This document shows, one piece after another, positions 22,908-40,733 of a stretch of DNA of 44,131 nt. Location: positions 1-44,131 of IMG/VR virus record IMGVR_UViG_3300036790_000794; one strand, 5' to 3'. Position 1 is the stretch's first letter; each line of letters opens with the position of its first letter. The notes beneath the pieces were generated by a model. That model was not told where the DNA came from. It made no database searches and was given only the letters and a program-made list of their open reading frames with translations. A program made the translations under genes and the position numbers. This stretch comes from a virus.

Positions 22908-25070
22908 ATGCCTTTGACTCCCCAGACCTTTGCGCGCGGCGGTACTTCGATGGTGCCCGATACGTTCACGCCCAGCGTGAGCCAGGGCGAGACGCCGCTT
23001 TCGCCGGCATCGAGCCCATGGGTAAGCCCGATGAAGAATGCGGCGCCGGGACTGCTGAGCCAGACGGGGCAGACGCTGACCGAGGCCGGCGACACAGAAA
23101 CGCGCGTGGGCGACACCATTGGCGATCGCGTGCAGGCGACGATGGACGATGCCCAGACGAAGGCTGCGGAGAACCAGTTTCTGCAGGCGGCGCTGCCGGC
23201 GCTGGGGCAGTACAGGACGACGGAAGGCATCAACGCGACGCAGCAGTGGGATCCAACCGCGCAGGCCATTTCAAAGGCGAAGCAGGATGCGCGCGCGACG
23301 CTGGCTAACCCCATTCAGCAACGCATGTTCGACCAGGTGGCGAACGATCATATGCTGAGCTTCAGCCAGCAGATGAGCGACCACCGGTCTGTCGAAGAAG
23401 TGCAGTACGGGAAGCAGCAGGCAAACGACCGCGCGGACAGCATGAATGTGCTGGCTATGAATGCTTACCTCGGCGGAAGGCAGTCCGACTATCAGAAGTA
23501 CAGCGGCCAGGCGGATGACGAGACGCGAGCTGTGGCGCAACTGAGCGGCGCGCAACCGGATGGGGCTCCGGATAGCGACGCTACGCAGGCGATGCTGCGG
23601 GCGAAGCGTGGCGTGCTGGCGCAGGGCGTGGTCGCGGGACTGCTGGATAAGCATGCCTATAACGAGGCGGCCGACTACTTCCAGAATGTGCAGGGGAACC
23701 TGGATGTGCCGGCGGCTGAGCGGCTGGGCAATGCGATCAAGAGCGTGACGCTGCAGGAGAGCGCGAAGACGGACGGCGAGAAGGCTGTGATGGCCGCGAA
23801 GGGCATCACGGGGCCCGGCGTGCTGCAGCCTCCGGTTGCGGCGGCGACGATCTCGACGACAGATGGGATCAACGGCATCGACCTGCATACGGCGCAGGGA
23901 ACGCCGGTGCGCGCGCCTGCGAGCGGGACGGTGAGCAAGGTCTGGAACGATGAGGCGAACGGCGGCGGCCTGACGGTGCAGATGCAGATGCCGGGCGGCT
24001 ATACGGCCGAGTTCAACCACCTGAGCGCGGCGAACTATACGGACGGGCAGAAGATCACCATCGGCCAGGTGCTGGGGCTGAGCGGCAAGGATGATTCCGG
24101 CCAGGGCGTCGTGAACTACAGCATGACCGATAAAGATGGCCAGCAGATCGATCCGCGGCAGGCGTCGAGCGCGCCGATGGACCCGAAGAACTTCAACGCG
24201 CCGGCGGATGAGGAGAAGGCTGTCGACTGGATCAACTCGAACGTGGCCGACCCGGATGAACGCAAGATGGCCGAGGGGTACGTGCGCGGGATCGCCAGCA
24301 CCAACCGGCAGATTACGAACCAGGAGCACGCGGCGGCGTTGAAGCAGGCTACGGATTTCTGGCTGCAGAACGGGAAGTCGATTGCGAACCTGCCGGCGAA
24401 TATCAAGATGCAACTGACGCCGGAGGATATCGACAGCTTTACGCAACAGGCGACGGCCGCTAAGAACGATCCGCAGACGGAGATTGATTTCCTGAGCGGC
24501 AAGACGCCGCTCACTCCCGACAATGTAAAAGCTGCGTACAGCCAGGGCAAGCTGAGCGACGACGGCTACGTGAAGTGGTCCGGCGAGGCGCTGAAACTTC
24601 AGAACGATCCACAGAAAACGAGGCAGGTTTCGATTGATCACGATCAGCTGACGGACCTCTTCAGCGTGAACCAACTGCCCGACATGGCGTATCCGAAGAA
24701 CGATGCTGACCGTGAGAATCGCGTGGAGATGGAAACGGCGATCAAGAACGAGATCGACAACCAGCAGCAGAAGGCCAACCGCGAGCTGAGCTGGCAGGAA
24801 AAGGGAAAGATCGCGCGGGACATGGTGATCGACAAGGTGTACACGTCTGGATGGCCCAACACCAACAGCGGACTGATGCCGGTGGCTACCCTCACGCCCG
24901 ATGAGCAAAATAAAGCGACTGTTTGGATTGGGAATCAGAGCGTGCGGATGATGGATATCCCAGCGCCGGCGACGGAGCGTGCGATGCAGGATCTGCGGTC
25001 CAGCGGGCTGCCAGCCACGCAGGCGAATATCGCCAAATGGTGGCTCCTGGGCGGAAAGCCGAAGCAATGA
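22908..25070 (+). CDS. Internal virion protein with degenerate M23 domain
   Basis: 720 residues. The first 300 residues are helical and Gln/Ala-rich, as in ejection proteins. Residues about 315-425 resemble an M23/LytM peptidase: NGIDLHTAQGTPVRAPASG, then AEFNHLSAANYTDG and GLSGKDDSGQ. However, the first zinc His of the HxxxD motif is Ile here, and the HxH near the C-terminus of the fold is replaced by VNY, so zinc catalysis is unlikely. The C-terminal half is helical with a basic end. It corresponds to the gp15-like slot. The fold may have become structural or peptidoglycan-binding. Confidence 0.75.
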   Translation: MPLTPQTFARGGTSMVPDTFTPSVSQGETPLSPASSPWVSPMKNAAPGLLSQTGQTLTEAGDTETRVGDTIGDRVQATMDDAQTKAAENQFLQAALPALGQYRTTEGINATQQWDPTAQAISKAKQDARATLANPIQQRMFDQVANDHMLSFSQQMSDHRSVEEVQYGKQQANDRADSMNVLAMNAYLGGRQSDYQKYSGQADDETRAVAQLSGAQPDGAPDSDATQAMLRAKRGVLAQGVVAGLLDKHAYNEAADYFQNVQGNLDVPAAERLGNAIKSVTLQESAKTDGEKAVMAAKGITGPGVLQPPVAAATISTTDGINGIDLHTAQGTPVRAPASGTVSKVWNDEANGGGLTVQMQMPGGYTAEFNHLSAANYTDGQKITIGQVLGLSGKDDSGQGVVNYSMTDKDGQQIDPRQASSAPMDPKNFNAPADEEKAVDWINSNVADPDERKMAEGYVRGIASTNRQITNQEHAAALKQATDFWLQNGKSIANLPANIKMQLTPEDIDSFTQQATAAKNDPQTEIDFLSGKTPLTPDNVKAAYSQGKLSDDGYVKWSGEALKLQNDPQKTRQVSIDHDQLTDLFSVNQLPDMAYPKNDADRENRVEMETAIKNEIDNQQQKANRELSWQEKGKIARDMVIDKVYTSGWPNTNSGLMPVATLTPDEQNKATVWIGNQSVRMMDIPAPATERAMQDLRSSGLPATQANIAKWWLLGGKPKQ

Positions 25071-28000
25071 CGCCCGGATCGCCGCTCAGTATCGCGCAGC
25101 AGATGCTGCAGGACGGATCGGCCCCGGATATGCCGTCCACGCAGCAGGGCGGCGCCGTTCCGATGCGTGCGGTGGTCGCGGCGGCGTCCACGCAGAATCC
25201 GGACGCAGAGGCGCATGCGCAGCAGCTCTCGCAGCAGACGGGAATGGGCGTTGACCTGGTGCGCCACAATCCGCAGGCTGCGCAGCAGCGGGCTACGGCT
25301 GCGGATCTCGACCGGCGCGACCTGGAGATCACGAATCCGATTCTGGCGCGGCAACTGCAGGACCCGAACTTCGCCGGCGTGGCGCATGACGATCTGGATA
25401 GCCTGACGGCGATCGAGCAGGGCGCGGCGCAACTGCGGGCGCAGGCGCAGAACAGCGCTGGGTTGGCCGGGCTGACGCCGACGCAGCGGCAGGCGGTGAT
25501 GGACGACCGGACGCGCGCGGCGATGGAGCAGTATCAAGGCGGCGGCGGGATCGGATTCTTGAACCGAGCGTGGGCTGAGACGAAGTCGGTTGCAGGCAAC
25601 ATCGATGCGGGCGTTTTTGGGGCGGCTAAGCCACTGATCGACGCCGGCGGAGCAGCGGTTCAGGGGGTTCTAGAGAGCCCTAAACCATTGATGGATGCAG
25701 CTACAGGGCTGGACCCTGACCTTGAGGGGTTGAAGAACGTGTGGGTAAACCCCCGGACGTTCGCAATACAGCGGGCTACGGGCGCTGTGCAGGATTACCT
25801 GTTGCGCCATATCCAGCAGGGACCGCAGCAATATCTCACCGATCCGCAGACGGGTCAGCAATTCAGGAACCCGGATTACGCGTGGTGGGGCCGGAACCTC
25901 GTGAACGCGTTCGAGCAGGTTCCTGGACAGTACGCGGCTTTCTACGCAGGCGGTGCGGGTGCGGGCGCGGCTGGCGAGGCCGCAAGTGCGGAAGGGTCGG
26001 CGGCAGAGATCTCGCCGCTAGCCGGAACGGTCGCGCCGGGTGCGATGGCTGAAAGCCAGAGCGTGCCGGCACTGCTGGGGACCCAGGCTGCTCAGACTAC
26101 CTATGCGCAGGCGCGGGCCAGGGGCGCGGATCAGAAAACGGCGATTGCGGCGGCGCTGACGTCGGGACTGTCGAACTACGCGCTGATGGGTAGAATGCCT
26201 GGACCGGTTGAAACGCCGGGGGTACTGAGCGCTGCGGGCCAGTGGGCTGGGCGCAGCGTCGCTATGGGAACGGGCATGACCGTGACCGACAACGCGATCG
26301 CGCGGAGCTACGATCCGAACCGCAGCCTGCTGGAAGGTCTGCCGCAGTCGATTGCGACCATGGGAGCATTCGAGGGCGTGGGCGGCTTCGGCGACGTGGT
26401 GAGCCACATCACAGACGCGGTTGCGGCGTCGAAGTTGGCAAAGCGTGCACCTGAAGTTTCTCAGCAGAATCTCGATGCGAACTTCGAGGGCGATGAGAGC
26501 CTGCGGATTCCGGCGCAGGAGTTCGTGGATTATTTTCAGGGCAAGAAGCTGGACCCGGCGGCGATGGCGAACCAGGTGGGCGTGACAAACCTGGAAGAGG
26601 CGGCCGCAGCGGGATCGGACCTGGAGATCCCGAAGGCGAACTTCTTTGGCAAGCTCGATCCGGAGCATCAGAAGGGACTGCTGCCGGACGTTGTGGACCC
26701 GTCGACGGACCTGACGATGAAGCAGGCCGAGGCCGGGCGCACGGAGCTGCAGGATTGGGTCTCCAACGGCGGCGCGGCGAAGCTGCAGGCTGAGTATGAA
26801 CAGGCGGATGCGGAGACGCAGGCCACGCCGGAGTGGCAGCAAGTTCAGAGCGATCTGAAGCAGCGGTACGTGGACGCCGGCGAGACGGATACGGCTGCGG
26901 ACAGCTATGCGACGCTGCAGGCGAATGCGATTGCGAACCTGGCGAAGAACGCCGGGCTGAAGCCGGACGAGCTGCTGGCGCTGCATAATCCGAAGCTGAC
27001 GGTTGGGGAAGCGCCCGGAACGGTGCTGCATCAGTCGGGGGTGGACGACGAAGGATCGGAAGTACCCGCGGAGCCGGCCGCGGCGCCGCCGGGGGCTTCG
27101 CCGCGCGGATGGTTTCAGATGCGGCCGGACGGCAGCTACGAGATCGGCAAAACCTCGCTCGGCGATATGAGCACGTTTATCCATGAGCCGGCGCATGCGT
27201 ATCTGGAGATGTTTCGCGAGTTGACGCAGCGCGAGGGCGCGAGCCAGCCGCTGAAGGATGACTTCGACAAGATTGCGAAGTGGCTGGGCACTACTCCTGA
27301 AGAGGCGTACGAGCACGGCTTCACGACTGAGCAGCATGAGCAGTGGGCGCGTGCGAATGAAGAGTACGTGCGCGAAGGGAAGGCGCCGAGCTCGGGATTG
27401 ACGCGGGCGTTTCACAATTTCAGCGTGTGGCTCAGCTCGATCTACCGGCGCGCGGGAGGCCTGGGCGTGGAGATGAGTCCCGACATTCGCGGCGTGATGG
27501 ACCGGCTCTATGCCGGTGAGGATGCCGTGAACCGGGCTGGCCAGGAGTCAAGCGAGAGGCTCTTTGCCAGCCCGGAAGAAGCTGGATGGACGGATGCGGA
27601 GTATCGCAATTACGCCGATGCGAAGGGGCTTGAGGTCGACAAGGCGCGGGAGCAAGTGAAGGCCGAGATGAACGAGGCGGCCGCGCGTGAGACGACGCAG
27701 AAGTGGCGTGAGGCTCGCGGCGATGTGCGCGACGCGGTGACCGAGCAGCTGGACGCGCGGCCGGAGTACACGGCGATCCGCAGCCTGCGGCGCGGCAAGC
27801 TGGACGATGGCACGGAGATGACGCTGAACCGGGACGAGCTGGTGAAGCAGTTCGGCGAGGATCGCGTGAAGGCGCTGCAGAAGCTGCATCCGGGGCTGTA
27901 CAGGTCTGAAGGCGGCACGGATGCGGAGACTGCCGGCGAGCTGTTTGGGTTTGGCTCGGGCGATGAGATGATGCGGGCGCTCGAAGCGGCGCCGCGACGG

Positions 28001-30835
28001 TCGATAGCGATAGAGCAAGGCACGCGCGATTATCTGGTTAATAAATATGGCGACGTGCGCTATGACGGCACGCTGATGGACAGGGCGCGCTTCAATCTCG
28101 AAAATCAAGAACGCGCGGGCAGCATCTATCGCGAGTTGAGGGCGCTGCGTGAGCGCGTGGCGAGCCTGACGAAGAAGGCTGCGGATGTTCGCGCGGTGAA
28201 CGACTCGATTGCGCCGCTGGAGCATTATCAGGAGGCGGCGGCGCGGATGGTCGATCAGAAGTCGATCGCCGATCTGCAGCCGAGCCGGTACTTGAATGCG
28301 ACCCGGATGTTTTCGCGGGAGGCCTTTGATGCGCTGCGCAAGGGTGACGCGCAGCGGGCGGCCGAGGCGAAGAACAAGGAGCTGTTGAATCACTTTCTCT
28401 ATCGCGAGGCGGTGAAGGCGCAGGATTACGCCGGCAAGTTCGAGAGCTACGCGAAGAGGATGCAGAGCATCGGCATCCAGCAGCGGATGGGGCTTGCGGG
28501 CAGCGACTATCGCGAGCAGTTCAACTGGCTGCTGGCGCGCTACAAGCTGGGTCCGACTCCCGTGGCTCCGGAGCGGCCGCTGCGGGCGTGGGCTGACGAT
28601 GTGTACTCGAACGGCAACGAGCCGGCGATTGCGCCGGGCATTTTGAACGAAGGCAAATTCGCGGACTACCGCAACGTGCCGCTGAGCGAGATCCACGACG
28701 TGCATGACGCGCTGGTGAACATCCGGCACCTGGCCATGCAGGAGTTCAAGATGTTTGTGCAGGGCAAGCAGGTGAGGTTTGCCGATGCCAAGCAGTCGAT
28801 GATCGAGTCTGCGCGGGAGAACCTGAAGTCGAAGCCGGAGAAGATCTTCGACGAGAACCGCGGCATGGGTGAGCGCATCGCGGACAAGCTGCAGCAGGGC
28901 GATGCGCTGCTGGTGCGCATGGAGCGGATGATCGAGTGGCTCGACGGCGGCAAGACGGGGCCGTGGCATGACAACCTGTGGAACCTCTCAGCTGATGCAC
29001 AGGGCGATGAGTACGACCTGCAGGAGAAGGTGACGAAGCCGATCTCCGACGCGATCCGCAATATTCCGGACGAGATGCGGCGGCGCATGTGGACGGAGAA
29101 GGTTGCAGTCGACGGGATTCCGGAGGCGCTGACGCGCCGCCGACTGGTTTCGATTGCCATGAACATGGGCAACGAGGGCAACCTCGACCGGCTGCAGAAG
29201 ACGTTCGACCACTTCGGCTGGGACCGCGACGCGATCAGCAAGATCGGCGGGATGCTCACGCGCGATGAGTGGCAGTTTGTGCAGAAAACGTGGGACTCAC
29301 TGAAGCCGATCGGCGATCGCATGAACGAGTTGCAGAAACGGCTGACCGGTTTGCCGCCGGCGATGGTGAAGGCAATTCCGTTCAAGGTTGCGCTGGATGA
29401 CGGCGGAGAGATGCAGCTCGATGGCGGCTACTTCCCCATCCGGATGGACCCAAGATTTTCAGATCGCGGCGTGCAGCAGGACGCGAAGGAGTCAGCGCAG
29501 AACGCGATGCAGTCAGGCTATGTGCGCGCGACGACGTCGAAGGGCTACACGAAGGAGCGCACCGGCTTTGGCGGCCCGCTGGATCTCGACTTCGAGCGCG
29601 CGCTGACGGATCACCTGGCGAAGGCGACGAAGGATCTTTCGCACCGGGAGTTCATGCTGTCAAGTCAGCGGCTGCTGCTGGACACGGAGGTACGCAAGTC
29701 GCTCAGAGAGACGCTGGGGCCGGCATACGAAAAGCAGTTCATGCCGTGGCTGCGGACGATCATCAATGACCGCAACGGGAGCGTCGGCCAGGGCGTGGAG
29801 GCGATCAGCAACGCGATGCAGGCGCTGCGCGGGAATATCGTGGCGGCATCGGTGGGCTTCAAGGTGTCGACGGCGCTGCTGCAGATCTCGCACGCGCCCA
29901 GGATGCTGCTCTACGCGAAGCCGGGATCGCTGGCGCAGGCGCTGGGGGATTTTCTGGCACGGCCGCGGGAGATCACCGAAGAGAACCGCGAGCTTTCTCC
30001 GAACGAGATGCGGTTCCGCGGCGACAATCTTGACCGCGATGTGCGCGCGGTGCTGCAGAACCCGACGTTCCGCGGAGGCTATGAGCAGAAGGTTGCGACG
30101 GCCGCGCGGTGGACCCTGCAGACAGTGGATCACCTGTTCAGCCATACGCTGTGGCGCGCGGCCTATAACGATGGGCTCCGGACGTATGCCGATCTGCCGG
30201 TGGATGAGGCACAGCAGAAGGCGGTCTACGAGGCCGACAGTGCGGTGCGGCTGGGATTGGGAACGTCGGCTCCGAAGGATCTGCCGGCGATCATGCGCAA
30301 CAACGACATGAACAAGCTGCTGACGACGCTGTACGGTTTCCATAACGGGGTCTATAACCAGCTGCGCGACAATGCGCACCAGTTCATGCAGGGCGGCAGT
30401 GTGGGCAAGCTGACTTACGCGACCATTCTGACCGCGGTGCTACCGGCGGTGCTGGGATCGCTGGTGACGGGCGACGGGCCGAAGAACGGCGAGAATCCTG
30501 GCCTGTGGGCGGCGAAGCGGGCGCTGCTGTTTTCGGCCGACACGATTCCGGTGCTGGGCTCGATTGCTGAGTACATGGCGAATGGGCATGACATGCAGTT
30601 CACGCCGATCGAGAGCGTGATGCAGCAAGGGGCTAAAGCCGCGATGGAAGCCGCGGCCGACAAGCCTAACAAGGATTGGATGGGGGTTGGGCTGGATGCC
30701 GGCGGTGCGGCTGGAGAGTTGTTCGGGGTGCCTGGTTCGCAGCAGGTGGTGAAGACGATCCGGTATATCAGGCGTGCGAACGCGGGGAAGGTTGCAAACC
30801 CGAGCTTGTGGGGGGCGTTTGCGGGGGGAAGGTAG
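25067..30835 (+). CDS. Giant internal virion protein with HExxH motif
   Basis: 1922 residues from ATG 25067 (ATGA overlap), in the gp16 slot of the ejection module. Residues 1-250 are Gln/Ala helices. At 706-710 lies HEPAH, followed by a helical segment with EQWARANEEYVREGKAPSSG and VEMSPDIRGVMDRLYAGE, the layout of zincin-like domains in phage large polyvalent proteins; the EE would be the third zinc ligand. The remaining 1000+ residues are helical and charged, with no transglycosylase signature. It is likely ejected with DNA and may cut host proteins or cross the envelope. The last 68 nt overlap an antisense gene. Confidence 0.8.
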   Translation: MTPGSPLSIAQQMLQDGSAPDMPSTQQGGAVPMRAVVAAASTQNPDAEAHAQQLSQQTGMGVDLVRHNPQAAQQRATAADLDRRDLEITNPILARQLQDPNFAGVAHDDLDSLTAIEQGAAQLRAQAQNSAGLAGLTPTQRQAVMDDRTRAAMEQYQGGGGIGFLNRAWAETKSVAGNIDAGVFGAAKPLIDAGGAAVQGVLESPKPLMDAATGLDPDLEGLKNVWVNPRTFAIQRATGAVQDYLLRHIQQGPQQYLTDPQTGQQFRNPDYAWWGRNLVNAFEQVPGQYAAFYAGGAGAGAAGEAASAEGSAAEISPLAGTVAPGAMAESQSVPALLGTQAAQTTYAQARARGADQKTAIAAALTSGLSNYALMGRMPGPVETPGVLSAAGQWAGRSVAMGTGMTVTDNAIARSYDPNRSLLEGLPQSIATMGAFEGVGGFGDVVSHITDAVAASKLAKRAPEVSQQNLDANFEGDESLRIPAQEFVDYFQGKKLDPAAMANQVGVTNLEEAAAAGSDLEIPKANFFGKLDPEHQKGLLPDVVDPSTDLTMKQAEAGRTELQDWVSNGGAAKLQAEYEQADAETQATPEWQQVQSDLKQRYVDAGETDTAADSYATLQANAIANLAKNAGLKPDELLALHNPKLTVGEAPGTVLHQSGVDDEGSEVPAEPAAAPPGASPRGWFQMRPDGSYEIGKTSLGDMSTFIHEPAHAYLEMFRELTQREGASQPLKDDFDKIAKWLGTTPEEAYEHGFTTEQHEQWARANEEYVREGKAPSSGLTRAFHNFSVWLSSIYRRAGGLGVEMSPDIRGVMDRLYAGEDAVNRAGQESSERLFASPEEAGWTDAEYRNYADAKGLEVDKAREQVKAEMNEAAARETTQKWREARGDVRDAVTEQLDARPEYTAIRSLRRGKLDDGTEMTLNRDELVKQFGEDRVKALQKLHPGLYRSEGGTDAETAGELFGFGSGDEMMRALEAAPRRSIAIEQGTRDYLVNKYGDVRYDGTLMDRARFNLENQERAGSIYRELRALRERVASLTKKAADVRAVNDSIAPLEHYQEAAARMVDQKSIADLQPSRYLNATRMFSREAFDALRKGDAQRAAEAKNKELLNHFLYREAVKAQDYAGKFESYAKRMQSIGIQQRMGLAGSDYREQFNWLLARYKLGPTPVAPERPLRAWADDVYSNGNEPAIAPGILNEGKFADYRNVPLSEIHDVHDALVNIRHLAMQEFKMFVQGKQVRFADAKQSMIESARENLKSKPEKIFDENRGMGERIADKLQQGDALLVRMERMIEWLDGGKTGPWHDNLWNLSADAQGDEYDLQEKVTKPISDAIRNIPDEMRRRMWTEKVAVDGIPEALTRRRLVSIAMNMGNEGNLDRLQKTFDHFGWDRDAISKIGGMLTRDEWQFVQKTWDSLKPIGDRMNELQKRLTGLPPAMVKAIPFKVALDDGGEMQLDGGYFPIRMDPRFSDRGVQQDAKESAQNAMQSGYVRATTSKGYTKERTGFGGPLDLDFERALTDHLAKATKDLSHREFMLSSQRLLLDTEVRKSLRETLGPAYEKQFMPWLRTIINDRNGSVGQGVEAISNAMQALRGNIVAASVGFKVSTALLQISHAPRMLLYAKPGSLAQALGDFLARPREITEENRELSPNEMRFRGDNLDRDVRAVLQNPTFRGGYEQKVATAARWTLQTVDHLFSHTLWRAAYNDGLRTYADLPVDEAQQKAVYEADSAVRLGLGTSAPKDLPAIMRNNDMNKLLTTLYGFHNGVYNQLRDNAHQFMQGGSVGKLTYATILTAVLPAVLGSLVTGDGPKNGENPGLWAAKRALLFSADTIPVLGSIAEYMANGHDMQFTPIESVMQQGAKAAMEAAADKPNKDWMGVGLDAGGAAGELFGVPGSQQVVKTIRYIRRANAGKVANPSLWGAFAGGR

Positions 30836-31061
30836 CTTGCCGCGCCTGGCGGTCAAGCCGATCGTAATACCGCGCGCCAGCGTAAGCGCCGCCGTAAGCG
30901 AACAGGAAAAAGATTGTGCCGTAGGCAAGCTGAACGAGCGGGCCGGTGCCAGCCCAGTGCGGTATGCGCACAAAGAGGGCCACGAATGCGCCGCCCATGA
31001 TCGCGCCGGGGGCAATGTAGCGCCAGGGCGAACCTAACTTGTTTACGTACTCGTAACTCAT
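30768..31061 (-). CDS. Small membrane protein of the antisense cargo pair
   Basis: 97 residues, minus strand, ATG at 31061 with GGAGG seven nt upstream. Two hydrophobic segments (about residues 14-32 and 42-62, APGAIMGGAFVALFV and LAYGTIFFLFAYGGAYAG) predict two spans with a basic, Pro-rich tail. It is 19 nt downstream of the secreted-protein gene at 31081, so they form an operon. Its 3' end runs 68 nt into the 3' end of the giant virion gene on the opposite strand. A lysogeny-expressed exclusion factor is possible. Confidence 0.7.
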   Translation of the reverse strand: MSYEYVNKLGSPWRYIAPGAIMGGAFVALFVRIPHWAGTGPLVQLAYGTIFFLFAYGGAYAGARYYDRLDRQARQATFPPQTPPTSSGLQPSPRSHA

Positions 31062-31080: not shown

Positions 31081-31530
31081 TCATTTCTGCCCGTTCATGA
31101 AGTTGTTCTTCAGGTGTTTGGCGATGGCTTCCGCTAAAGACTGAATACCTGCCGGGCCGCCATTTGCTTTCCGCACCTGATAAGCCCACACGACGGCATC
31201 GCTCTTGACCAGCTGAACACTTACCGAAGAGCTACCGTCAGCACCCACGCAGTATGCAAGCAGGCATCTTGCAAATTGACTGGCTCCGGATTCGGTGTGC
31301 GCGTTTACCCCGGAGGCCTTCAGGACGTAATCGGCCTTCGATTTGTCTGTCACTATCTGCACCGGAACGTGTTTCTTGATGATCGCGGCTGCGAGAGAGG
31401 TCTGGAAGTTAGGTTCGGCTTCGATGTAGATACCGGGGCGTTGCGCTTCCTGGGCATCGGCGATGCGATTCATGCCGAAGCATACAGCCAGCGCGACGCA
31501 TGCAACTGTCACTGCGTTCCTACGTGACAT
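31081..31530 (-). CDS. Secreted cargo protein (acidobacterial family)
   Basis: 149 residues from ATG 31530 (TAGGAG just upstream on the minus strand). The N-terminus MSRRNAVTVACVALAVCFGM is a Sec signal peptide with cleavage near ADA-Q. The mature part (QTSLAAAIIKKHVPVQIVTD, SKADYVLKASGV, SVSVQLVKSDAVVWAYQVRK, SLAEAIAKHLKNNF) resembles a family common in acidobacterial genomes, with no known function. It is oriented against the late phage genes, which is typical of morons expressed in the lysogen. Probably acquired from the host lineage. Confidence 0.75.
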   Translation of the reverse strand: MSRRNAVTVACVALAVCFGMNRIADAQEAQRPGIYIEAEPNFQTSLAAAIIKKHVPVQIVTDKSKADYVLKASGVNAHTESGASQFARCLLAYCVGADGSSSVSVQLVKSDAVVWAYQVRKANGGPAGIQSLAEAIAKHLKNNFMNGQK

Positions 31531-31565
31531 TCGTCGTCTCCTATCCAATCTTTCGTGAGGTCAAC

Positions 31566-31634: not shown

Positions 31635-32414
31635 ATGACGATCAGCTCTACTTCGCGGGTGGCGGGACCGTTCAATGGGACGGGCTCGGCCTCCAACTTT
31701 CCGATCATGTTCGCGGTTTTTGCGGCGACGGATGTCTACGTTACGACGTTGAATGTAGCGACGGGCGCGACCGCGGTGCTGGCGCTGACGACGGATTACA
31801 CGGTGGCGCTGAACGCAGATCAGAACGGGAATCCGGGCGGATCGATCACGCTGACTTCAGGCGGCCAGACGGGCGGCGTGCTGGCTGCCGGATACCGGCT
31901 GGCGATTACGACGGAGATGCCCGCGGTGCAGGGTCTGGACCTGACCAATGGCGGCGCGTTCTATCCGGACGTGATCAATGCTGCGCTGGACACGCTGACG
32001 ATCCTGGTGCAGCAGCTCGGGGTGCTGGCGGCGCGGTCGCTGCAGGTTCCGATTGTGGACTCCGGCGCGGGGGTTGTTTTGCCGCCGGCGGCTGAACGTG
32101 TGGGCAACCTGCTGGGGTTTGACGGCGAGGGCAACGTGGAGATGGTTGCGATGGCCGGCGGCGGGGGCGGCTCGGGCGGCAGCATTCCGGTGGCGCAGGC
32201 GGCGGTGGGCACGGTGGACGGGACGAATACGGCGTTCACGTTCACTGCAACGGCGACGACGCCGCCGGTGCCGATGGTGTACGCGGGCGGCGTGTTTCAG
32301 AGCCCGACGGCGGATTACGACACGCCGGTAACGCTGGTTTCAGGAAACACCTGGCAGCTCACTTTTGTTACCGCGCCTGCTGTGGGGCCCATCACCGTGG
32401 TGTTGTTCGCGTGA
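31635..32414 (+). CDS. Tail fibre protein, T7 gp17 N-terminus-like
   Basis: 259 residues; ATG 31635 with AAGGAG nine nt upstream. The N-terminal 150 residues (SSTSRVAGPFNGTGSASNFPIMF ... TDYTVALNADQNGNPGGSITLT ... TEMPAVQGLDLTNGGAFYPDVINAALD) are the T7 tail-fibre attachment domain that docks to the nozzle. A Gly-rich linker (about 174-184) and a short beta-rich end follow. It is too short to be a whole receptor-binding fibre, so it likely acts as an adaptor for other receptor-binding proteins. Confidence 0.85.
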   Translation: MTISSTSRVAGPFNGTGSASNFPIMFAVFAATDVYVTTLNVATGATAVLALTTDYTVALNADQNGNPGGSITLTSGGQTGGVLAAGYRLAITTEMPAVQGLDLTNGGAFYPDVINAALDTLTILVQQLGVLAARSLQVPIVDSGAGVVLPPAAERVGNLLGFDGEGNVEMVAMAGGGGGSGGSIPVAQAAVGTVDGTNTAFTFTATATTPPVPMVYAGGVFQSPTADYDTPVTLVSGNTWQLTFVTAPAVGPITVVLFA

Positions 32415-32428: not shown

Positions 32429-35400
32429 ATGAAGAACCTGCTATTTATTTGCGCGGCGACACTTGCGGTTTCTGCGGCGGCGCAGACGCCGACTCCGCAG
32501 TACCAGCCCAAGATCCCTGGCCGCGGGCTGGATGTTTATCCCAACATGACGAGCCCGACTGGGTACAACGGGGACACTTCTTACTGCGGGACGTCGACGG
32601 CGCAGAGTGTTCTTGACTACGGTGCGGGGTATCCGGGGTGGATTTATAGCGACAATCCGCTTACGGCCGATCCTACGGTGAAGTGCCAGACGCCTTACCT
32701 GGATGACCCCACGTTGACTGCGCCGAGCCCTTCGCTGCCGATCAATTCAGCTGGGATCAACACGCTGAAGCCGGGCACTTACCAGTTTCCGGGCACGGTC
32801 AACGTGCCTTCATACCATATTTATCAGGGGCTGTTCGACTCGCAGGACAATACCAACACGACCAGCACCGCCGGCGTGGTGGTGGAACCAGCGACGACGG
32901 GCGCCAACACGTTTGCGCTGCAGCCACACGGGACGCAGGGCGGCAATGCGCTGATCAATCTTGGGTGCCCGCCGAGCACTACCGGCGGCTGCCTTGCGAT
33001 TGGCTCAGTGGTGCGCAGGCTATTCCTGAAAGGGCTGGGAGTACCGAGCCTTATCGGCGTTTCGAACTACTTCACGCAGCAATTCGGCAGCATCGACCAC
33101 AACCAGTTCGTAGGATTTGCCACGTGCATCCGGCTGGGCGGATACGGGACCGGCGGCGGCGCGCAGAACTTCAGCACCGTGTATCAGAACTCCTGCCAGC
33201 CGGAGATGCCGCAAGCGACGCCGGGTTCGGATCAAGCGATTGTGGTCTCGGGCGGCTATTACTCGCAGCAGCCTGCGATCACGGTTACAGGCACCTGCAC
33301 GGTGCTTCCGAGTCTTGCGGCGGACGGCACATTTCCGGGTGCCGTGACTGGTGTTCATGGCGTTGCGCCGAACTATTACGGGTACGGCTGCAGTTCGGTG
33401 ACGCTGACCGTTTCATCGACCTATGGCTCCGGGGCGATGCTGACGCCGATCTACGAGACGCAGCCGCAGATGCCGGGGATCTACGCCGACGGGCATTCGG
33501 CAGGCGGATCGATGGACGAGAATTCCGTGGTGGCCGGCTCCGGCGAGGTTATCCCATACGGCTTCAAGGTCGAGGCCGGCAACTGGCAAGTGCATCACGA
33601 TTACTGCGAGTCGGTGATTACCTGTTTCGGGCTCGGAGAGACTCAGACGAGCGGCATCAACGGCGTGCTGGTTGAGGGTATGCACACGCAGGCGGCTAAC
33701 TGGCCAGGCTTCGACATGATCGATGTCGGGACCGCTTCGGGCGGCAAGGTCGGACTCTTTGCGGCCGCGGATGAGGGCTCCGGAATGGCGTGGCTGGTTC
33801 GCGATCCCTATCACGGCGTGTTCATTCCTTCGATTCCAGCGGTGGGTCCGTCTTCAGGATGGGCGGGGAACGGCGGCCAGCTTGGGTTGTACGCCACTAC
33901 GCCGGGCGGACGGGTGCTGAGCACCGAGCCTCAAGTTACGTCGACTATTTCTATTGGCCCGACGGCTCCGAACTGCGGGTCCGGGTGCAGCTCGACTAAC
34001 TCGCCTGTGGCCTTTGTGCCTGCGAAGTTCGTGAACGGCGACTACCAGACGATGACCATCACGGATACCGATATTCCAGCGGGCATCTTCACCAACGTGG
34101 TTCCATCGGCGAGTTACCTTCAGGCTTCGACGGCGACCAAGCTTGGCGAGTCGCCGCTGATCCTCGATGGCGCCGGCACCGTTGGCGATTATGTGGTGCC
34201 GAGCACGACGACGGTGGCTCCTGCCGCGCCTGGCGGCGTTGCGCATGGCGCTGTGGGGCACGATTCAGGCTACTCGCCGAGCAATCCGCCGTTTACCAAC
34301 ATCACTACGCTGGGCACGATTCACGATGACAAGTCTTCAGGCAATGCGGTGGGATTTGTATCCGCGCCGAGCGGGATCTCCTGCACCCCGACCGGGAGCG
34401 GGCCGCTGACAGTGACGCTGACGTTTGCGTATGTGACGTCGGCGGATCAGACGATGAGCGCGACGGATGTGGTAACGGTGACCGGCGTGCCGGCCTACTT
34501 CAGCGAAGGCACCTACATTACCTGCTCGGGCTTCGCGTCGACGCCGACCGCCATCTACATCACGAGCGTGACGGGCGGGACGGCGCCGACGATCACGGCG
34601 AACTGCGGAAGCGATGGCGGGACGACGGGCCTCACTATCTCGGGCACCGGCGGGAGCGGCTATACGCTGCCGCCGACGGCTGTGTTTACCGGAGGCGGAT
34701 TTTCGACTGAGCCGACATTCAATTTCCATGTGAGCGGCGGGGCGATTACGGGCTGGGACATTGTTGGCCGTGGTGCTGGCTGCACGGGCAGCGCGACCGG
34801 GACGCTCACGAACAATGTGCGCACCACGGGGCGCATCGCGGTGAGCTACTCGACCAGCAGCGTCAAGATTTACGGCCAGGAGGGGGATGGAACGGTTCCA
34901 CCGGCGGCGGGGCAGATTGCGCCGAACATCGATGTGGACATCAAGACGTGGCCGGGGATCACCGTGGCGTCGGCTTACAACGATGTGCCGGATTTCGATT
35001 TCATTAACGAGACCTGGACGCTGGACCCGATCTACGCGTATAGCTCGACGACGGATACAGAAGGCTACAACTCTATCATCTACACGGGCACGGGCTCGCC
35101 GGTCACTTTGCCTCACCGGGCCGGATCGACTGCGATGACGGTGACGCCGAACACTACCTACACTTTTACAGGCAAGGTGGATGCGCGATATATCACGGCC
35201 GGAACCGCCTCGATCTACATCTGCGAGCCGGGGACCGGGTGCGCTACCTCGTACCTGATTGTCAACCAGACGAACGGGCAGACGGGGCTTATTGGCGGGA
35301 CGATTACCACGGGCTCCGGAGTCACCAGCCTGGAGTTCGACTATGTGCTCAATGCCGTGACGGTCAGCAGCGGGCAGAATGTGGTGTTCAGCCAGCCGCA

Positions 35401-36082
35401 GTTGAATGCCGGGCAGAATGCTTATCTCTACTGGGAGACGCTGCCGCCGAGCGTGCCGGCGCTGAAGACGAATGCGCTGAGTCATATTATTCCGGCGACA
35501 TCGGGGGGAGGGAGCGCCTTTGCGGGCGGCGTGGGCGCGAGCTACCAGGATGTGACGGAGATCGCGGCGCCGGCAGATCCGGCCTCGGGCAATGACCGGC
35601 TTTATACCGATAGCAGCACGCACAAGTTCGCGTGCCTCACGTCGGCCGGGGCGAGCTGTATGCCGAGCGGCAGCGGCAACGTGAATGCAGGCGCAGCGCT
35701 CGCGAACAATCAGCCGGTGAACGGCCAGGGCAGCGCGAATGCCGGCACGGGCTTTACGCCGACGACGGCTGGCACGATCACTGCCGGGAAGCTAGCCTGC
35801 TATACGGCCAGTAATACGGTCGGCAACTGCACGGGGACGCCCTCGGTGAACATCATCGGAGTGTTCAATTCTTCGACAACCTGGATCGCAAGCGGAGAGG
35901 CTTCGATCACGCTGGATGGCACGGTCAACGTGACGGCTGGAGATCTTCTCTGCGCTTCATCGACGGCCGGAGTTTCGCATGACAACGGCCTGGTGGCCTG
36001 CGCTACGGGTGAGTGGGTTGGCGTGGTGAAGACGACCGCGTCGAGTGTTTCATCGGCAACCGCTTTCATTGCACTGAGGTAA
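32429..36082 (+). CDS. Large secreted tail-region protein with signal peptide
   Basis: 1217 residues from ATG 32429 (GGAGGA upstream). It opens with MKNLLFICAATLAVSAAAQT, a Sec signal peptide with an AxA cleavage site, which is unusual for a virion protein. Residues 30-600 read as a beta-helix/pectate-lyase-like region with repeated short strands, followed by beta-sandwich segments. A conserved tail module (VTEIAAPADPASGNDRLYTD, FACLTSAGASCMPSG) and a C-terminal beta domain ending SSATAFIALR close it. It may be a tail spike or an exported adhesin. No catalytic motif is clear. Confidence 0.75.
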   Translation: MKNLLFICAATLAVSAAAQTPTPQYQPKIPGRGLDVYPNMTSPTGYNGDTSYCGTSTAQSVLDYGAGYPGWIYSDNPLTADPTVKCQTPYLDDPTLTAPSPSLPINSAGINTLKPGTYQFPGTVNVPSYHIYQGLFDSQDNTNTTSTAGVVVEPATTGANTFALQPHGTQGGNALINLGCPPSTTGGCLAIGSVVRRLFLKGLGVPSLIGVSNYFTQQFGSIDHNQFVGFATCIRLGGYGTGGGAQNFSTVYQNSCQPEMPQATPGSDQAIVVSGGYYSQQPAITVTGTCTVLPSLAADGTFPGAVTGVHGVAPNYYGYGCSSVTLTVSSTYGSGAMLTPIYETQPQMPGIYADGHSAGGSMDENSVVAGSGEVIPYGFKVEAGNWQVHHDYCESVITCFGLGETQTSGINGVLVEGMHTQAANWPGFDMIDVGTASGGKVGLFAAADEGSGMAWLVRDPYHGVFIPSIPAVGPSSGWAGNGGQLGLYATTPGGRVLSTEPQVTSTISIGPTAPNCGSGCSSTNSPVAFVPAKFVNGDYQTMTITDTDIPAGIFTNVVPSASYLQASTATKLGESPLILDGAGTVGDYVVPSTTTVAPAAPGGVAHGAVGHDSGYSPSNPPFTNITTLGTIHDDKSSGNAVGFVSAPSGISCTPTGSGPLTVTLTFAYVTSADQTMSATDVVTVTGVPAYFSEGTYITCSGFASTPTAIYITSVTGGTAPTITANCGSDGGTTGLTISGTGGSGYTLPPTAVFTGGGFSTEPTFNFHVSGGAITGWDIVGRGAGCTGSATGTLTNNVRTTGRIAVSYSTSSVKIYGQEGDGTVPPAAGQIAPNIDVDIKTWPGITVASAYNDVPDFDFINETWTLDPIYAYSSTTDTEGYNSIIYTGTGSPVTLPHRAGSTAMTVTPNTTYTFTGKVDARYITAGTASIYICEPGTGCATSYLIVNQTNGQTGLIGGTITTGSGVTSLEFDYVLNAVTVSSGQNVVFSQPQLNAGQNAYLYWETLPPSVPALKTNALSHIIPATSGGGSAFAGGVGASYQDVTEIAAPADPASGNDRLYTDSSTHKFACLTSAGASCMPSGSGNVNAGAALANNQPVNGQGSANAGTGFTPTTAGTITAGKLACYTASNTVGNCTGTPSVNIIGVFNSSTTWIASGEASITLDGTVNVTAGDLLCASSTAGVSHDNGLVACATGEWVGVVKTTASSVSSATAFIALR

Positions 36083-36086
36083 ACAA

Positions 36087-37469
36087 ATGAGAAAAGTAAT
36101 TCTGCTGTGCGGCCTGCTGATGCTGGCCGCGGTTGGGCATCTGCACGCCCAGACGGTGCAATGCCAGACGGCCTCGGGCGCTTGGGGTCCATGTCCCCTC
36201 AATGCGAGCGTTCAGCTATTCAGCGCGCAGGCGGCGACGGGCACGGCCACGTCGACGGCGCAGAAGGTCTATAACTTCTCGATGAACGGCGCGATTCTGA
36301 CGACGTTCGCCGGGATCACGGGATCTCCATCCGGGTGCACGGTGCAGATCAAGACCGGCGACTCGCTTGGCAACCTGGTGAACAACGGGTCAGCCATTTC
36401 AGAGACCGTTTCGAATGGGTCGACATACGGTGCCTTCGTATCTTCTACGGAGCCGCAGTCTGACGAGATCGAGGCGGTGTGGAGTTGTAGCACCACTTAT
36501 CCGAGCGCTGGCACAATCAGCCTGGAATATGTGCCCAGCACGGTCTCGGTACCGGTGGATTCGAACGGCTACCTGAAGGTGAACCTGGCGGCGAACTCTA
36601 ACGGCGCGATTGGGGTGACTGGGACTTTCTGGCAGGCGACACAGCCGGTGTCGGGAACTTTCTGGCAGACCACGCAGCCTGTCTCGATCGCTTCGCTGCC
36701 GGCGCTGCCTTCCAACCAATCGGTGAACATTGCGCAACTGCTGGGCTCGGCGCCGGGCGCGACGAATCCGTTTTATGCATGGCTGACGGATGGGACGAAC
36801 GCAGCGGGAGCTTTTGCCAACTACGGCACGTCGCCTGGCGCGGTGAAGGTTCCGGGGATGAATGCGTATGTGACCAACATACCAGCGGTAACGCAGTCTG
36901 GGAATTGGACGGCGCGGTCGGTAGGCAACGGCGGGGCGATCATGGATGCCGCCGCAGGAGCGGCCGCCGGAGCCAATTCGCTGCTGAGCGGTTGCGAATA
37001 TGTATCTTCTGCACCGACGCTTACCACTGGCGAGCAGGAGCCGTGCCTGATGGACGCGGCCGGCAATCACCTGGTGAACGTGAAGACGGCGCTTCCGGCG
37101 GGCACGAACAACGTGGGCGGCTTTATGCCAACGCCTACGACTTCATCGTCTCAGGCTACGGCAATCTGTTTGCTGGCGGCGAATACGACGGCTGCTTCGT
37201 GCAAGTCCGGGGCCGGAAATCTGTATGGGTTTTCGCTTTACAATCCGAACTCGACTTTGTGCGTGCTGCAGATCTTCAACACGTCGAGCGTGACGCTGGG
37301 CACGACGCAGGAGCTGCTAGACATCCCGGTGTTGCCGACGGGTGGCAATAATTACGCGTATGTTTTCCCGGTGAACTTCAGTGCGGATATTTACGTGGCT
37401 TCGACGACCGCGGCGCATGGCGCTTCAACCTGCTCGACCGGGATGCTGGTGAATCTCTTCTATGAATAA
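36087..37469 (+). CDS. Secreted beta-rich protein with GTFWQ repeats
   Basis: 460 residues. The N-terminus MRKVILLCGLLMLAAVGHLH followed by AQ is a Sec signal peptide. Residues 20-160 are beta-rich with paired Cys (CQTASGAWGPC). Two tandem repeats near residue 180, GTFWQATQPVS and GTFWQTTQPVS, precede a variable region. The C-terminus (CVLQIFNTSSVTLGT, YVFPVNFSADIYVAST) reads like a phage tail C-terminal domain. The gene starts 4 nt after the previous stop, so the four exported proteins form one unit. Confidence 0.7.
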   Translation: MRKVILLCGLLMLAAVGHLHAQTVQCQTASGAWGPCPLNASVQLFSAQAATGTATSTAQKVYNFSMNGAILTTFAGITGSPSGCTVQIKTGDSLGNLVNNGSAISETVSNGSTYGAFVSSTEPQSDEIEAVWSCSTTYPSAGTISLEYVPSTVSVPVDSNGYLKVNLAANSNGAIGVTGTFWQATQPVSGTFWQTTQPVSIASLPALPSNQSVNIAQLLGSAPGATNPFYAWLTDGTNAAGAFANYGTSPGAVKVPGMNAYVTNIPAVTQSGNWTARSVGNGGAIMDAAAGAAAGANSLLSGCEYVSSAPTLTTGEQEPCLMDAAGNHLVNVKTALPAGTNNVGGFMPTPTTSSSQATAICLLAANTTAASCKSGAGNLYGFSLYNPNSTLCVLQIFNTSSVTLGTTQELLDIPVLPTGGNNYAYVFPVNFSADIYVASTTAAHGASTCSTGMLVNLFYE

Positions 37470-39027
37470 GCTTGCGGCATTTCTCGCGGTTTTGATCTGC
37501 TGGCCGCTCATGGCCCAGGCCCCGAGCGAGCTATTGCTTGTAGGCCAGGGGGCGATGGTGGCGAGCGGCGCGCCGACAACCCCTACGTTTGTCTCTTCGG
37601 TTGGAGAGTCGAGCACGGCGCAATATCCGTCGAGCGGGGCGGCTGTCAAAACTTTCTACTTCACGCTGGCCCAGCCTGCGCAGGTCGGCGACTGTATCTT
37701 TGTCTATTCGACTACCGGCGCGAGCGCGGCCTTGACGGGCTGGGCCGCATCGGATGATGGCAGCAATACCTATAGCCTGCTGACCAGCGCGGTGGACACC
37801 ACGGACGGCGGAACGATTGCGATCTTCTCGGCGAAAGCGACGACAGCGGCGACCAAGGTCTCCGTCACCTGGACGAGCGCCGCGCAGATCTATGTCAGCG
37901 GCGGCGCTATGGTGTCGGCCGGCACGGGATCATCCTGCGCGGCCGATCAGAGCTGGAACAATGCGGCGACTTCGACGAGCACAACCGTGAACGCAGGCTC
38001 GGCCGGGAAGACGACATCGGCGAGCGGCGATCTGATGTTGATGTGCGCACTGGGCACACAGGGACTGACGGGACCGATCAGCGCGGGCTCGCAGACCAAT
38101 ATCACCTGGAAGATCGTGCCCGGCACACCGCAATACTACTTCCATTCCGGGTGCCAGTGGGGCATCTACAGCTCGACGGCTTCGATCAACCCATCGATGA
38201 CGTTTGGAACGGCCGACACTTATGTGGCCGTGGCTGTGGCCGTCAAAGCCGGCAGCGGCGGTGTGACGCCCTCGACGGGCAAGGTTCCCGTCTCGATAGG
38301 CCACTATGACATAAGCGGATGGACGGGGAACAACTGCAACACGCTGAATTGCACGGTCACTGAGCAGCTCGCGGTCCAAGCGGGCGGCGCGCTGGTTATC
38401 ACTGAATCCACTTACTGCGATTCGAGCAACAACGGTTACACGGTCAAGGGCATCACCTCGTCACCGTCGTACACGTGGACCAAGATCACCGGAACCTTTT
38501 ATACGGGCCAATGTCCGTCTTCCGGCTTCTCGGAGATGTGGTACGCGCTGGGGGTTGCGCCTACCTCGAATGTGACGCTCACGCTGACCATGAACGGGCC
38601 GGTGGGCGGAGCGACGGGAGAAGAGCCCGACGATCCCATGATCATCTACGACGTGCAGAACGTCACGGCGCTCGATACATCGGGCGTGGCCAGCGGGCAG
38701 CAGAGCTCTACGGGGAATCTTTCAACGGCGAGCTTAACGCCTTCGTCGAGCGGAGAATTTATTGTCGCTGTGCAATCGGAGGATTTCTGGGGCGTCGCCG
38801 GCGTTACGGGCGGTCTGACGAGCTTTCAGATGGGAAGCTGGCTGAATACATCGAGTCTGGATCAGTGCGACTATCCCACGCCTGGGTACACGCCGCCGAA
38901 CATTCCTGATGAGTGCAACGGCGCCGGCTGGGGAAACAACACTTCAACATCAACCTTCACCGCGACGTACACGACGAGTGGCATCGCGGCGCAGTACTGG
39001 GCTGCGGTGATTGCGGCATTCAAATGA
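37462..39027 (+). CDS. Secreted beta-rich protein, multiple Cys
   Basis: 521 residues, overlapping the upstream gene by 8 nt. The signal peptide is MNKLAAFLAVLICWPLMAQA. The mature protein consists of two similar beta-sandwich halves (first: FYFTLAQPAQVGDCIFVYST ... TKVSVTWTSAAQIYVSGGAM; second: SEMWYALGVAPTSNVTLTLT ... EFIVAVQSEDFWGV), each ending in a WAA/VAVAVK strand. Many Cys residues suggest disulfides formed outside the cytoplasm. It looks like a surface-binding protein; the receptor is unknown. Confidence 0.7.
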   Translation: MNKLAAFLAVLICWPLMAQAPSELLLVGQGAMVASGAPTTPTFVSSVGESSTAQYPSSGAAVKTFYFTLAQPAQVGDCIFVYSTTGASAALTGWAASDDGSNTYSLLTSAVDTTDGGTIAIFSAKATTAATKVSVTWTSAAQIYVSGGAMVSAGTGSSCAADQSWNNAATSTSTTVNAGSAGKTTSASGDLMLMCALGTQGLTGPISAGSQTNITWKIVPGTPQYYFHSGCQWGIYSSTASINPSMTFGTADTYVAVAVAVKAGSGGVTPSTGKVPVSIGHYDISGWTGNNCNTLNCTVTEQLAVQAGGALVITESTYCDSSNNGYTVKGITSSPSYTWTKITGTFYTGQCPSSGFSEMWYALGVAPTSNVTLTLTMNGPVGGATGEEPDDPMIIYDVQNVTALDTSGVASGQQSSTGNLSTASLTPSSSGEFIVAVQSEDFWGVAGVTGGLTSFQMGSWLNTSSLDQCDYPTPGYTPPNIPDECNGAGWGNNTSTSTFTATYTTSGIAAQYWAAVIAAFK

Positions 39028-39035
39028 GGAGGAAT

Positions 39036-39452
39036 ATGAAACGGATTGCGATTTTTGCTTTGATGATGGCGGCGGCTTCGCTGGCTGGAGCTGCTCAAAC
39101 GGTAACGCTGACCGGACCAACCGTGCAGAACGGGAGCATCACCTGGACCGCTGCGGCTGCTGTTTCTGGCGGCTGGGGTGGTTGCACCGCGGCGCAGGCC
39201 TGCGACTACTCAGTCTATGCGCTGAGAGGGGCGAGCTGCCCGGCCACGATCGTTGGGTCTGCGGGCTGGACGGAGGTGGCGCCGGCGGTGACGGGGACGA
39301 GCTTCACCGATGCGACGGAGGCGGCGGGGACCAGCGTTTCGTATGTGGTGTACACGACGCAGAGCGGAAATCAGAGCGGGCCTTCGAACTGCATCACGGT
39401 GGCTTACCCTTTCGACCCTGCCCCGCCAAGCAATGTTGCGGGACAGGGTTGA
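39036..39452 (+). CDS. Small secreted FnIII-like protein
   Basis: 138 residues; AGGAGG before ATG 39036. Signal peptide MKRIAIFALMMAAASLAGAA. The mature domain is a single fibronectin-III-like sandwich (QTVTLTGPTVQNGSITW, YSVYALRGASCP, VSYVVYTTQSGNQSGPSNC) with four Cys. It is the last of four consecutive exported proteins in the fibre region. It may act as an adhesive or decoy module; function not known. Confidence 0.65.
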   Translation: MKRIAIFALMMAAASLAGAAQTVTLTGPTVQNGSITWTAAAAVSGGWGGCTAAQACDYSVYALRGASCPATIVGSAGWTEVAPAVTGTSFTDATEAAGTSVSYVVYTTQSGNQSGPSNCITVAYPFDPAPPSNVAGQG

Positions 39453-39502: not shown

Positions 39503-39793
39503 ATGGACCAGGCCGCGCTGCAGTTCCAGGAGCAGCTTCACAAGCAGAACCAGGAAAGGTTTCAGCGGATGGAGGACCTGCAGATCGAGCAGGTGGCCAC
39601 ACTGGCCCGTATCGAAGAGAACACCAAGCAGATTCCGCAGTTGACCCAAAGGGTTTCCGACCTCGAAAGGGTGAGGGATCGCATGACGGGGGCGCTTGCG
39701 GCCGTGGGGACTCTCGCCGCTTTGCTGGGAGCCGTCCTGGGGGCGGCGCTGACTGAGTTGGTTCACTGGATCGGTCAGAAGCTTATTCGTTAG
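39503..39793 (+). CDS. Holin-like coiled-coil/TM protein (XhlA-like)
   Basis: 96 residues; GGGAGGG before the ATG. A long Gln/Glu coiled coil (residues 5-60, QNQERFQRMEDLQIEQVATL ... TQRVSDLERVRDRM) is followed by one hydrophobic segment (about 63-85) and a short basic tail. This is the layout of XhlA/haemolysin-type holin accessory proteins of phage lysis cassettes. No lysozyme is found beside it. Confidence 0.6.
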   Translation: MDQAALQFQEQLHKQNQERFQRMEDLQIEQVATLARIEENTKQIPQLTQRVSDLERVRDRMTGALAAVGTLAALLGAVLGAALTELVHWIGQKLIR

Positions 39794-39878: not shown

Positions 39879-40733
39879 ATGTTTTCGAATATCTGGCAAC
39901 ATCCTAAGACTTCGGCGGCCGGGGTGCTGATCGCGATTGTTGCGATCGCCGGCGTGTTTTCACAGCAGGGCGTGACGCTGGGGAATGCGGGCACGGGAAC
40001 GGTGGTGGCGCTGGTGGCGGCTTGCGCTACGGCGCTGCTGGGGTTGCTGGCGCGGGATCCGCAAGTGCAGGGATCAGAGATCAGAGATCAGGGATCAGCC
40101 GGTACGCCGCAGAAGCTGGGCATGATTATGCTGGTTGCGATTCTTTGTGCGTGCTGGGCTGCTTCGCCGGCGAGGGCTCAGGCTGCAGCTCCGGCTGCTG
40201 CCAGCACCGGGTTTGTGGCGTCGACAGATGTGCTCGCGATTGGCGGCCCAAGCGGCTGGAGTGCCGGCAATCGCACGAACGAAGACTACGATCTTCTGGA
40301 ATTTGGGGCGACGAAATCAAACCGCTTGTTCCTTGAGGGCGTCGAGCTCCTGGCTCCGTCGGCCGGCTTCTCGATCTATGGCGGCGGCGTCAAGCTGCAG
40401 CCCGATATCTCGAGCATCCTGAAAAAGACCAACCTGCCGACGGGGAACTTTCTCGCGTTCCTCGATGGCTCGGTCGGCAACACGATCTATGCGACGGGAC
40501 CGAACCACGTGGGCGTGATCGTCGGCGGTGGGTTGCAGTACATCACAACCTCCACGATGACCTGGAACACTCTGCGCTTCGATGAGATCCTGGCGGGCGG
40601 CAAGCATTACCCGTCGCTGTCTACTGGCATTTCGCTCTACTTCGGCGGGACGCCGGCGTCGGCGGCGGCTTCGCCGAACGTGAAGCGATCGCTGCTGCGC
40701 AGGATTGCGACGGCCACGGCGGCGACGAAGTAA
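39879..40733 (+). CDS. Holin-like protein fused to a secreted protein across a heptad repeat
   Basis: 284 residues, GAGGAGG before ATG 39879. Residues 1-63 (SNIWQHPKTSAAGVLIAIVA ... VVALVAACATALLGLLARDP) form a two-span holin-like membrane protein. Residues 65-77 come from a 28-nt heptad repeat. At about residue 83 a second signal-peptide-like start (MIMLVAILCACWAASPARAQA) begins a beta-rich domain (FLEGVELLAPSAGFSIYGGG ... ISLYFGG) like an outer-membrane or exported protein. Two ancestral genes appear joined in frame by the repeat. Confidence 0.65.
   Translation: MFSNIWQHPKTSAAGVLIAIVAIAGVFSQQGVTLGNAGTGTVVALVAACATALLGLLARDPQVQGSEIRDQGSAGTPQKLGMIMLVAILCACWAASPARAQAAAPAAASTGFVASTDVLAIGGPSGWSAGNRTNEDYDLLEFGATKSNRLFLEGVELLAPSAGFSIYGGGVKLQPDISSILKKTNLPTGNFLAFLDGSVGNTIYATGPNHVGVIVGGGLQYITTSTMTWNTLRFDEILAGGKHYPSLSTGISLYFGGTPASAAASPNVKRSLLRRIATATAATK
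40071..40098 (+). repeat. 7-bp tandem repeat, 4 units, inside a CDS (RGATCAG)
   Basis: GGATCAG, AGATCAG, AGATCAG, GGATCAG: 28 nt, TCAG at 40074, 40081, 40088 and 40095. Because 28 is not a multiple of three, insertion here changes the downstream frame and can explain the gene fusion it bridges. Confidence 0.85.

Follow-up and report, generated by a model that had tools for sequence, protein, structure and literature searches.

Consecutive signal-peptide proteins behind a short T7-type fibre anchor are candidate exported adsorption proteins of a tailed phage

Four consecutive genes, here called A to D, in the IMG/VR viral record IMGVR_UViG_3300036790_000794 (44,131 nucleotides, analysed over its whole length and referred to as the window) encode proteins with predicted Sec signal peptides, directly behind a short T7-type fibre anchor. 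They are probably the distal adsorption proteins of the phage, that is, split tail spikes or fibres that would be exported, disulfide-bonded and docked on the anchor stub. On sequence grounds, their export from the cytoplasm is well supported, and their presence in virions is rather likely. The tails of tailed phages normally assemble in the cytoplasm, where stable disulfides do not normally form. The broader proposition is that in some tailed phages, above all those of Acidobacteriota, the host-recognition apparatus is Sec-exported and disulfide-bonded, so that the virion is completed outside the cytoplasm and no earlier than lysis; its chances are about even. The initial annotation had described four consecutive proteins of 1217, 460, 521 and 138 residues right behind a T7-fibre-like gene, and these reading frames are confirmed:

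32429..36082, + strand: gene A, 1217 residues; proposed main exported spike or fibre, with a signal peptide, the motif TPQYQP and 24 cysteines in the mature protein
36087..37469, + strand: gene B, 460 residues; proposed fibre protein, with a signal peptide, a GTFWQATQPVSGTFWQTTQPVS repeat and 10 mature cysteines
37462..39027, + strand: gene C, 521 residues; signal peptide and 10 mature cysteines; the start overlaps the stop of B
39036..39452, + strand: gene D, 138 residues; small protein with a signal peptide (residues 1–19) and 4 mature cysteines

Signal peptides were called with a rule-based detector of Sec/signal peptidase I (SPI) substrates (not SignalP) at a cut-off of 4.7. E. coli K-12, T7 and lambda served for its calibration; five of five known exported E. 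coli proteins score at least 4.7, and the few false calls are mainly membrane anchors. All four proteins are called, in line with the clear signal peptides that had been noted from the sequence and for which a prediction had been advised:

32429..32482, + strand: signal peptide of A, residues 1–18, cut after residue 18 (SAAA^QTP), score 5.61
36087..36149, + strand: signal peptide of B, residues 1–21, cut after residue 21 (LHA^Q), score 5.65
37462..37515, + strand: signal peptide of C, residues 1–18 or 1–19 (MA^Q), score 4.88
39036..39092, + strand: signal peptide of D, residues 1–19, score 5.70

The four N-termini consist of n-, h- and c-regions with an AxA-type cleavage site and are typed as SPI substrates because none contains a lipobox. 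Random draws from each protein's own composition match its signal score in 0–0.05% of trials, and no + strand virion gene upstream of A reaches 4.7 with this detector. Four signal peptides in a row are not due to chance, as only about 4% of background genes (21/559, in viral loci far from query matches) score so high. It had been allowed that the true starts might lie downstream of the hydrophobic segments. The annotated starts of A (GGGAGG upstream) and D are preceded by strong Shine-Dalgarno sequences and that of B by a weaker one; the start of C, which overlaps the stop codon of B, has none, and a weak alternative exists at residue 32 of C. The start of C is the least certain among the four.

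The T7-fibre-like gene had been taken as a complete fibre, which does not hold, as only the anchor is encoded:

31635..32414, + strand: fibre anchor or adaptor, 259 residues, without cysteine or signal peptide, directly 5' of A

Residues ~1–140 form a T7-type tail-anchoring N-terminal domain (phrog_1640 tail protein, E = 1.3e-26). A search of PDB sequences matched the protein to the Dpo36 tail fibre (E = 9.8e-19), and an AlphaFold2 (AF2) model built from 11 sequences, with a predicted local distance difference test (pLDDT) score of 66, matches the tail fibre anchor of Carin 1 (8ck1_B, E = 4.8e-07). The C-terminal module of ~65 residues (~190–259) corresponds to no known type of receptor-binding domain. 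The gene product is a virion anchor without a receptor-binding domain, so that the phage has no evident receptor-binding part unless A–D provide it. Genes A–D occupy the fibre position of the tail module, 3' of the gp16-like internal virion protein and the anchor, and the same position holds an exported gene in two relatives, L090 and L098. The genes follow each other tightly, with spacings of 14 nucleotides between the anchor and A, 4 between A and B, −8 between B and C, and 8 between C and D. They form an apparent late-type operon with no promoter-like site within it on the + strand.

The nearest phages were found through the gp16-like protein. In L089 (gp16-like protein 70% identical), a single fibre of 974 residues combines the anchor and a PF12708 pectate-lyase spike in one chain and has no signal peptide. 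L090 (67% identical) encodes an anchor of 248 residues followed by a signal-peptide protein of 524 residues, and L098 (66% identical; a prophage in an Acidobacteria assembly) an anchor of 247 residues followed by a signal-peptide protein of 1089 residues. The latter matches PF12708 above the cut-off, and its PHROG matches are exopolysaccharide (EPS) depolymerase and tail spike; the same spike family is thus found in an exported protein and in the one-chain, non-exported fibre of L089. Over all T7-type anchors found, in loci where genes were called mechanically, a signal-peptide gene lies directly after the short anchor in 3/3 cases (window, L090, L098) and after a full-length fibre in 0/13 (p = 0.0018, a somewhat optimistic value since the 13 include several closely related ones from Pseudomonas). 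At the level of the predicted genes, the pattern of a short anchor followed by a signal-peptide gene is real and recurrent. Anchors of this T7 type were found in 2/396 Acidobacteriota genomes.

Just after the predicted cleavage site, the first exported protein of the window, of L090 and of L098 carries the motif TPQYxP (TPQYQP in A), which among 3164 gene calls occurs elsewhere once, at residue 339 of an unrelated protein. The C-terminal module of the anchor is common to the same three phages and absent from L089, and the unrelated locus L083 contains a stand-alone copy of this kind of module, of 77 residues, followed by a signal-peptide fibre-like gene. As the motif is common to three exported proteins and the module to three anchors, and given the stand-alone copy, the two are proposed to be a docking pair. 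The module would be the docking site for the exported spike, and we infer that A may bind the anchor through its TPQYxP segment. That the module is unique to exported systems was considered and dropped, as weak copies occur in the fibres of L084 and L085.

The mature proteins A, B, C and D have even numbers of cysteines, and their cysteine density of 2.0–3.4%, against 0–1.6% in the virion proteins of the window, bears out their description as cysteine-rich. Disulfide-forming exported proteins tend towards even numbers of cysteines, and this has been used as a criterion in mycobacteria (PMC12421883). In runs of signal-peptide phage genes the number is even in 37/43 proteins, or 29/35 with one representative per homology cluster. 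Controls with at least two cysteines are even in 61%, above 50%, because small counts dominate, and the controls rather than 50% were therefore used as the yardstick. Run proteins with at least eight cysteines are even in 23/23 cases versus 66/114 controls (58%; Fisher p = 1.5e-5), and cysteine density is 2.0% in the exported runs versus 0.74% in controls. In an Acidobacteria host genome, exported proteins with at least four cysteines are even in 7/7 cases and the others in 74/134; the figure for full-length non-exported fibres is 5/10. Cysteine parity argues, as evidence beyond signal-peptide prediction, that A–D work outside the cytoplasm.

Exported proteins with few cysteines (an odd number in L019 and L022) were observed near or after baseplate or tail-fibre genes in L019 (4729-8130), L022 (4659-7327) and L031 (3469-6689). 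Export in these phages is without the disulfide signature, and the idea that export serves solely for disulfide formation was dropped on account of L019 and L022.

Similar runs occur in unrelated phages. Signal-peptide relatives of B are found in runs of 2–5 exported proteins that lie near portal, head, head-closure, baseplate or tail-fibre genes; 15/58 genes near such a relative are exported versus 21/559 far away (p = 8e-8), in a sample of loci biased toward relatives of B. In Tunturi_1 and L002, four or five exported proteins are encoded in succession, or nearly so, between structural genes or behind them. The arrangement in the window has its strongest parallel in the cultured Tunturiibacter phages. 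The signal-peptide proteins of Tunturi_1 are gp12, gp13, gp14 (tail spike), gp16 and gp17 (virion structural protein), with 20, 10, 20, 1 and 32 mature cysteines, respectively. Tunturi_2 has a run like that of Tunturi_1, with a gp17 that is 96 residues longer and has 34 instead of 32 cysteines (L146 19474-23028, L203 18902-22744), a gain of two that is as expected if cysteines are gained in pairs. In Tunturi_4, gp113 and gp114, with 8 and 20 cysteines, lie behind a stub-like gene of 146 residues. Annotations in the runs of these three phages include tail spike, pectin lyase, tail protein and virion structural protein. Signal peptides were found neither in the fibres of Tunturi_3 nor in those fibres of Tunturi_5 that were read, and the scan returned no viral relatives of Tunturi_1 gp11. 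No integrase is reported for Tunturi_1 and Tunturi_2, and signal peptides are not mentioned in the main text of the paper on these phages (PMC11924767); similar runs without a reported integrase speak against a purely lysogenic role.

In L026, the third gene of an exported run (12043-14622) has a twin-arginine-like N-terminus (MKLSRRHLLATASAAALWG), which suggests twin-arginine translocation (Tat) instead of Sec export for this phage tail-region protein.

Genomes of Acidobacteriota contain further cases. In one of them (G420/L116), exported proteins of 929 and 1083 residues have 20 and 24 cysteines, there is a borderline match to a spike domain, and the C-terminal region of A shares 42% identity with a stretch of an exported protein of the prophage. 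Relatives of A were not found in viral-contig and phage-collection searches, nor relatives of C and D in viral-contig searches, and no known spike domain (β-helix or pectate lyase) was matched in A–D with Pfam or PHROGs. B contains the repeat GTFWQATQPVS, which is present in many phage proteins, and its C-terminal domain (~335–460) is shared with a non-exported phage protein in L009. In three Acidobacteriota genomes (L118, L119 and L120), relatives of C lie in regions without recognised phage genes; the phage may have acquired C from its host.

A sequence of events can be proposed for the exported spikes. The 259-residue anchor would be assembled onto the tail in the cytoplasm, with the receptor-binding parts made as separate proteins. 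A–D would pass through Sec, lose their signal peptides to signal peptidase I and form disulfides on folding in the periplasm. At or after lysis by holin and endolysin, the freed virions would come into contact with the exported spikes, which would then dock on the anchor; in the case of A, the contact would probably be between its mature N-terminal TPQYxP segment and the C-terminal module of the anchor.

Several points weigh against A–D being exported virion spikes. The route by which a periplasmic protein would reach a virion built in the cytoplasm is only proposed. A, C and D have no matches to known tail-spike families (Pfam and PHROGs, and for A also PDB sequences), and an AF2 model of A residues 19–658 without alignment reached a pLDDT of 30, so that A is given no fold. 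The anchor module has the marks of a generic fibre module, given its weak copies in L084 and L085, and L019 and L022 combine signal peptides with cysteines that are few and odd in number. The split anchor and spike of Klebsiella phage KP34 manage without a signal peptide, and the Tunturi paper reports no virion proteomics (PMC11924767). Finally, the relatives of C are chromosomal proteins of Acidobacteriota, one of them with a clear signal peptide, and for this reason C may not belong to the virion, nor perhaps D.

The relatives of C also make it a serious possibility, if somewhat short of probable, that A and perhaps B are exported virion spikes and that C and D, of host origin, are secreted for some other function, for example to modify the surface. 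TPQYxP occurs in A only among the four, the C-terminal domain of B recurs in the non-exported L009 protein, relatives of C are found in chromosomal regions, and L090 and L098 have a single exported gene at this place; the four or five exported proteins in a row in Tunturi_1 and L002 suggest rather that a multi-protein adsorption apparatus is common. This division is compatible with an exported spike in the case of A, and the weights given to the alternatives thus overlap with that of the preferred reading. It is unlikely that all four are exported without joining the virion, as free EPS-degrading spikes that aid release and spread, as adhesins, or as receptor-masking or exclusion proteins. The clear signal peptides would fit such a role, as would the secreted type of the chromosomal relatives of C, the EPS depolymerase match in L098 and the integrase of this temperate phage; lambda Lom, encoded right after the tail-tip gene J, is exported and detected as such. 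The anchor-only fibre gene would then leave the phage with no other evident receptor-binding protein, the tight late-type operon has no internal promoter-like site on its strand, the same run exists in Tunturi_1 and Tunturi_2, with no reported integrase, and nothing would explain why signal-peptide genes go with truncated anchors.

It is very improbable that the signal peptides are unused, with the usual cytoplasmic assembly or with a hydrophobic N-terminus that acts as a tether or in assembly. Tailed phages normally build their tails in the cytoplasm, and the annotated start of C has no Shine-Dalgarno sequence; however, the cysteine parity resembles that of exported host proteins, unlike that of cytoplasmic fibres, each signal peptide has an SPI cleavage motif, and TPQYxP starts right after the predicted cut in three phages. 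The initial annotation had offered periplasm-folded fibres, surface adhesins and receptor masking as explanations. The first is favoured by the fibre position behind an anchor stub, the spike family shared by L098 and L089, and the cysteine parity; the other two are less favoured and keep some weight especially for B, C and D.

The split design itself is already known from KP34, a podovirus with gp49 as anchor and gp57 as receptor-binding spike (PMC8262889). KP34 combines a T7-type anchor, which has no enzymatic domain, with a separate spike that binds the receptor and is attached indirectly; the window has such an anchor, and A–D would take the place of the spike, with non-covalent docking as proposed from the TPQYxP motif and the anchor module. 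The KP34 anchor (307 residues) and spike (630 residues) have no signal peptide, whereas A–D all have one and are rich in cysteines of even number. Podoviruses of the BPP-1/AF/CP2 type and Carin1 resemble the window phage in the gp16-like protein (27–33% identity) and the T7-type anchor, that of Carin1 (8ck1) matching the window anchor, but the relatives read carry one full-length fibre or spike without a signal peptide. Tunturi_1, Tunturi_2 and Tunturi_4 have runs of consecutive signal-peptide proteins, rich in cysteines of even number and annotated as tail or structural, and belong to other phage groups. Lambda Lom is likewise an exported phage protein encoded beside tail genes, but it is one small outer-membrane protein, whereas the four window proteins reach 1217 residues and have features of fibres or spikes, and the phage encodes no other protein that evidently binds a receptor. 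Titles and abstracts on signal peptides, disulfides or export contained no description of Sec-exported phage tail proteins, which is weak evidence of novelty as subscription journals were mostly outside this scope. What may be new, on that weak evidence, is that the distal proteins are exported and disulfide-rich.

If the proposal is true, exported, disulfide-bonded spikes are a second route of virion assembly beside cytoplasmic completion, and the apparent want of a receptor-binding protein in these phages is explained. Adsorption genes would then lie among proteins that are readily passed over as unknowns or as secreted by bacteria, and the production of such proteins for study would have to change. 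The idea is directly testable in the cultured Tunturi phages.

The window comes from a soil virus, contains T7-like portal, head, tail and gp16-like genes together with an integrase, and most likely belongs to a temperate T7/BPP-1-like podovirus with a host among Acidobacteriota, as judged from L098. Two further features flank the anchor and the four genes:

25067..30835, + strand: T7 gp16-like giant internal virion protein (phrog_9880), 0 cysteines, just upstream
39503..39793, + strand: small, probably lysis-associated protein directly 3' of D, with a weak match of hemolysin XhlA/holin type (phrog_937, E = 7.2e-4)

Between gp16 and the anchor, the − strand carries a small moron-like gene (31081-31548) with a signal peptide of its own (score 4.8–5.0) and no family match. 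Similar-looking small membrane proteins are encoded on the − strand in the slot just 3' of gp16 in the window (30768-31061) and in L090 (2976-3188), and another membrane protein lies in this slot in L089 (12536-13039); the opposite-strand genes are possible exclusion or immunity genes. Downstream, a single frame (39879-40733) links a holin-like two-helix N-terminus, with a short GATCAGAGATCAGAGATCAG repeat immediately ahead of the junction, to an apparent second signal peptide (MIMLVAILCACWAASPARA^Q) and an apparent β-rich, outer-membrane-protein-like domain.

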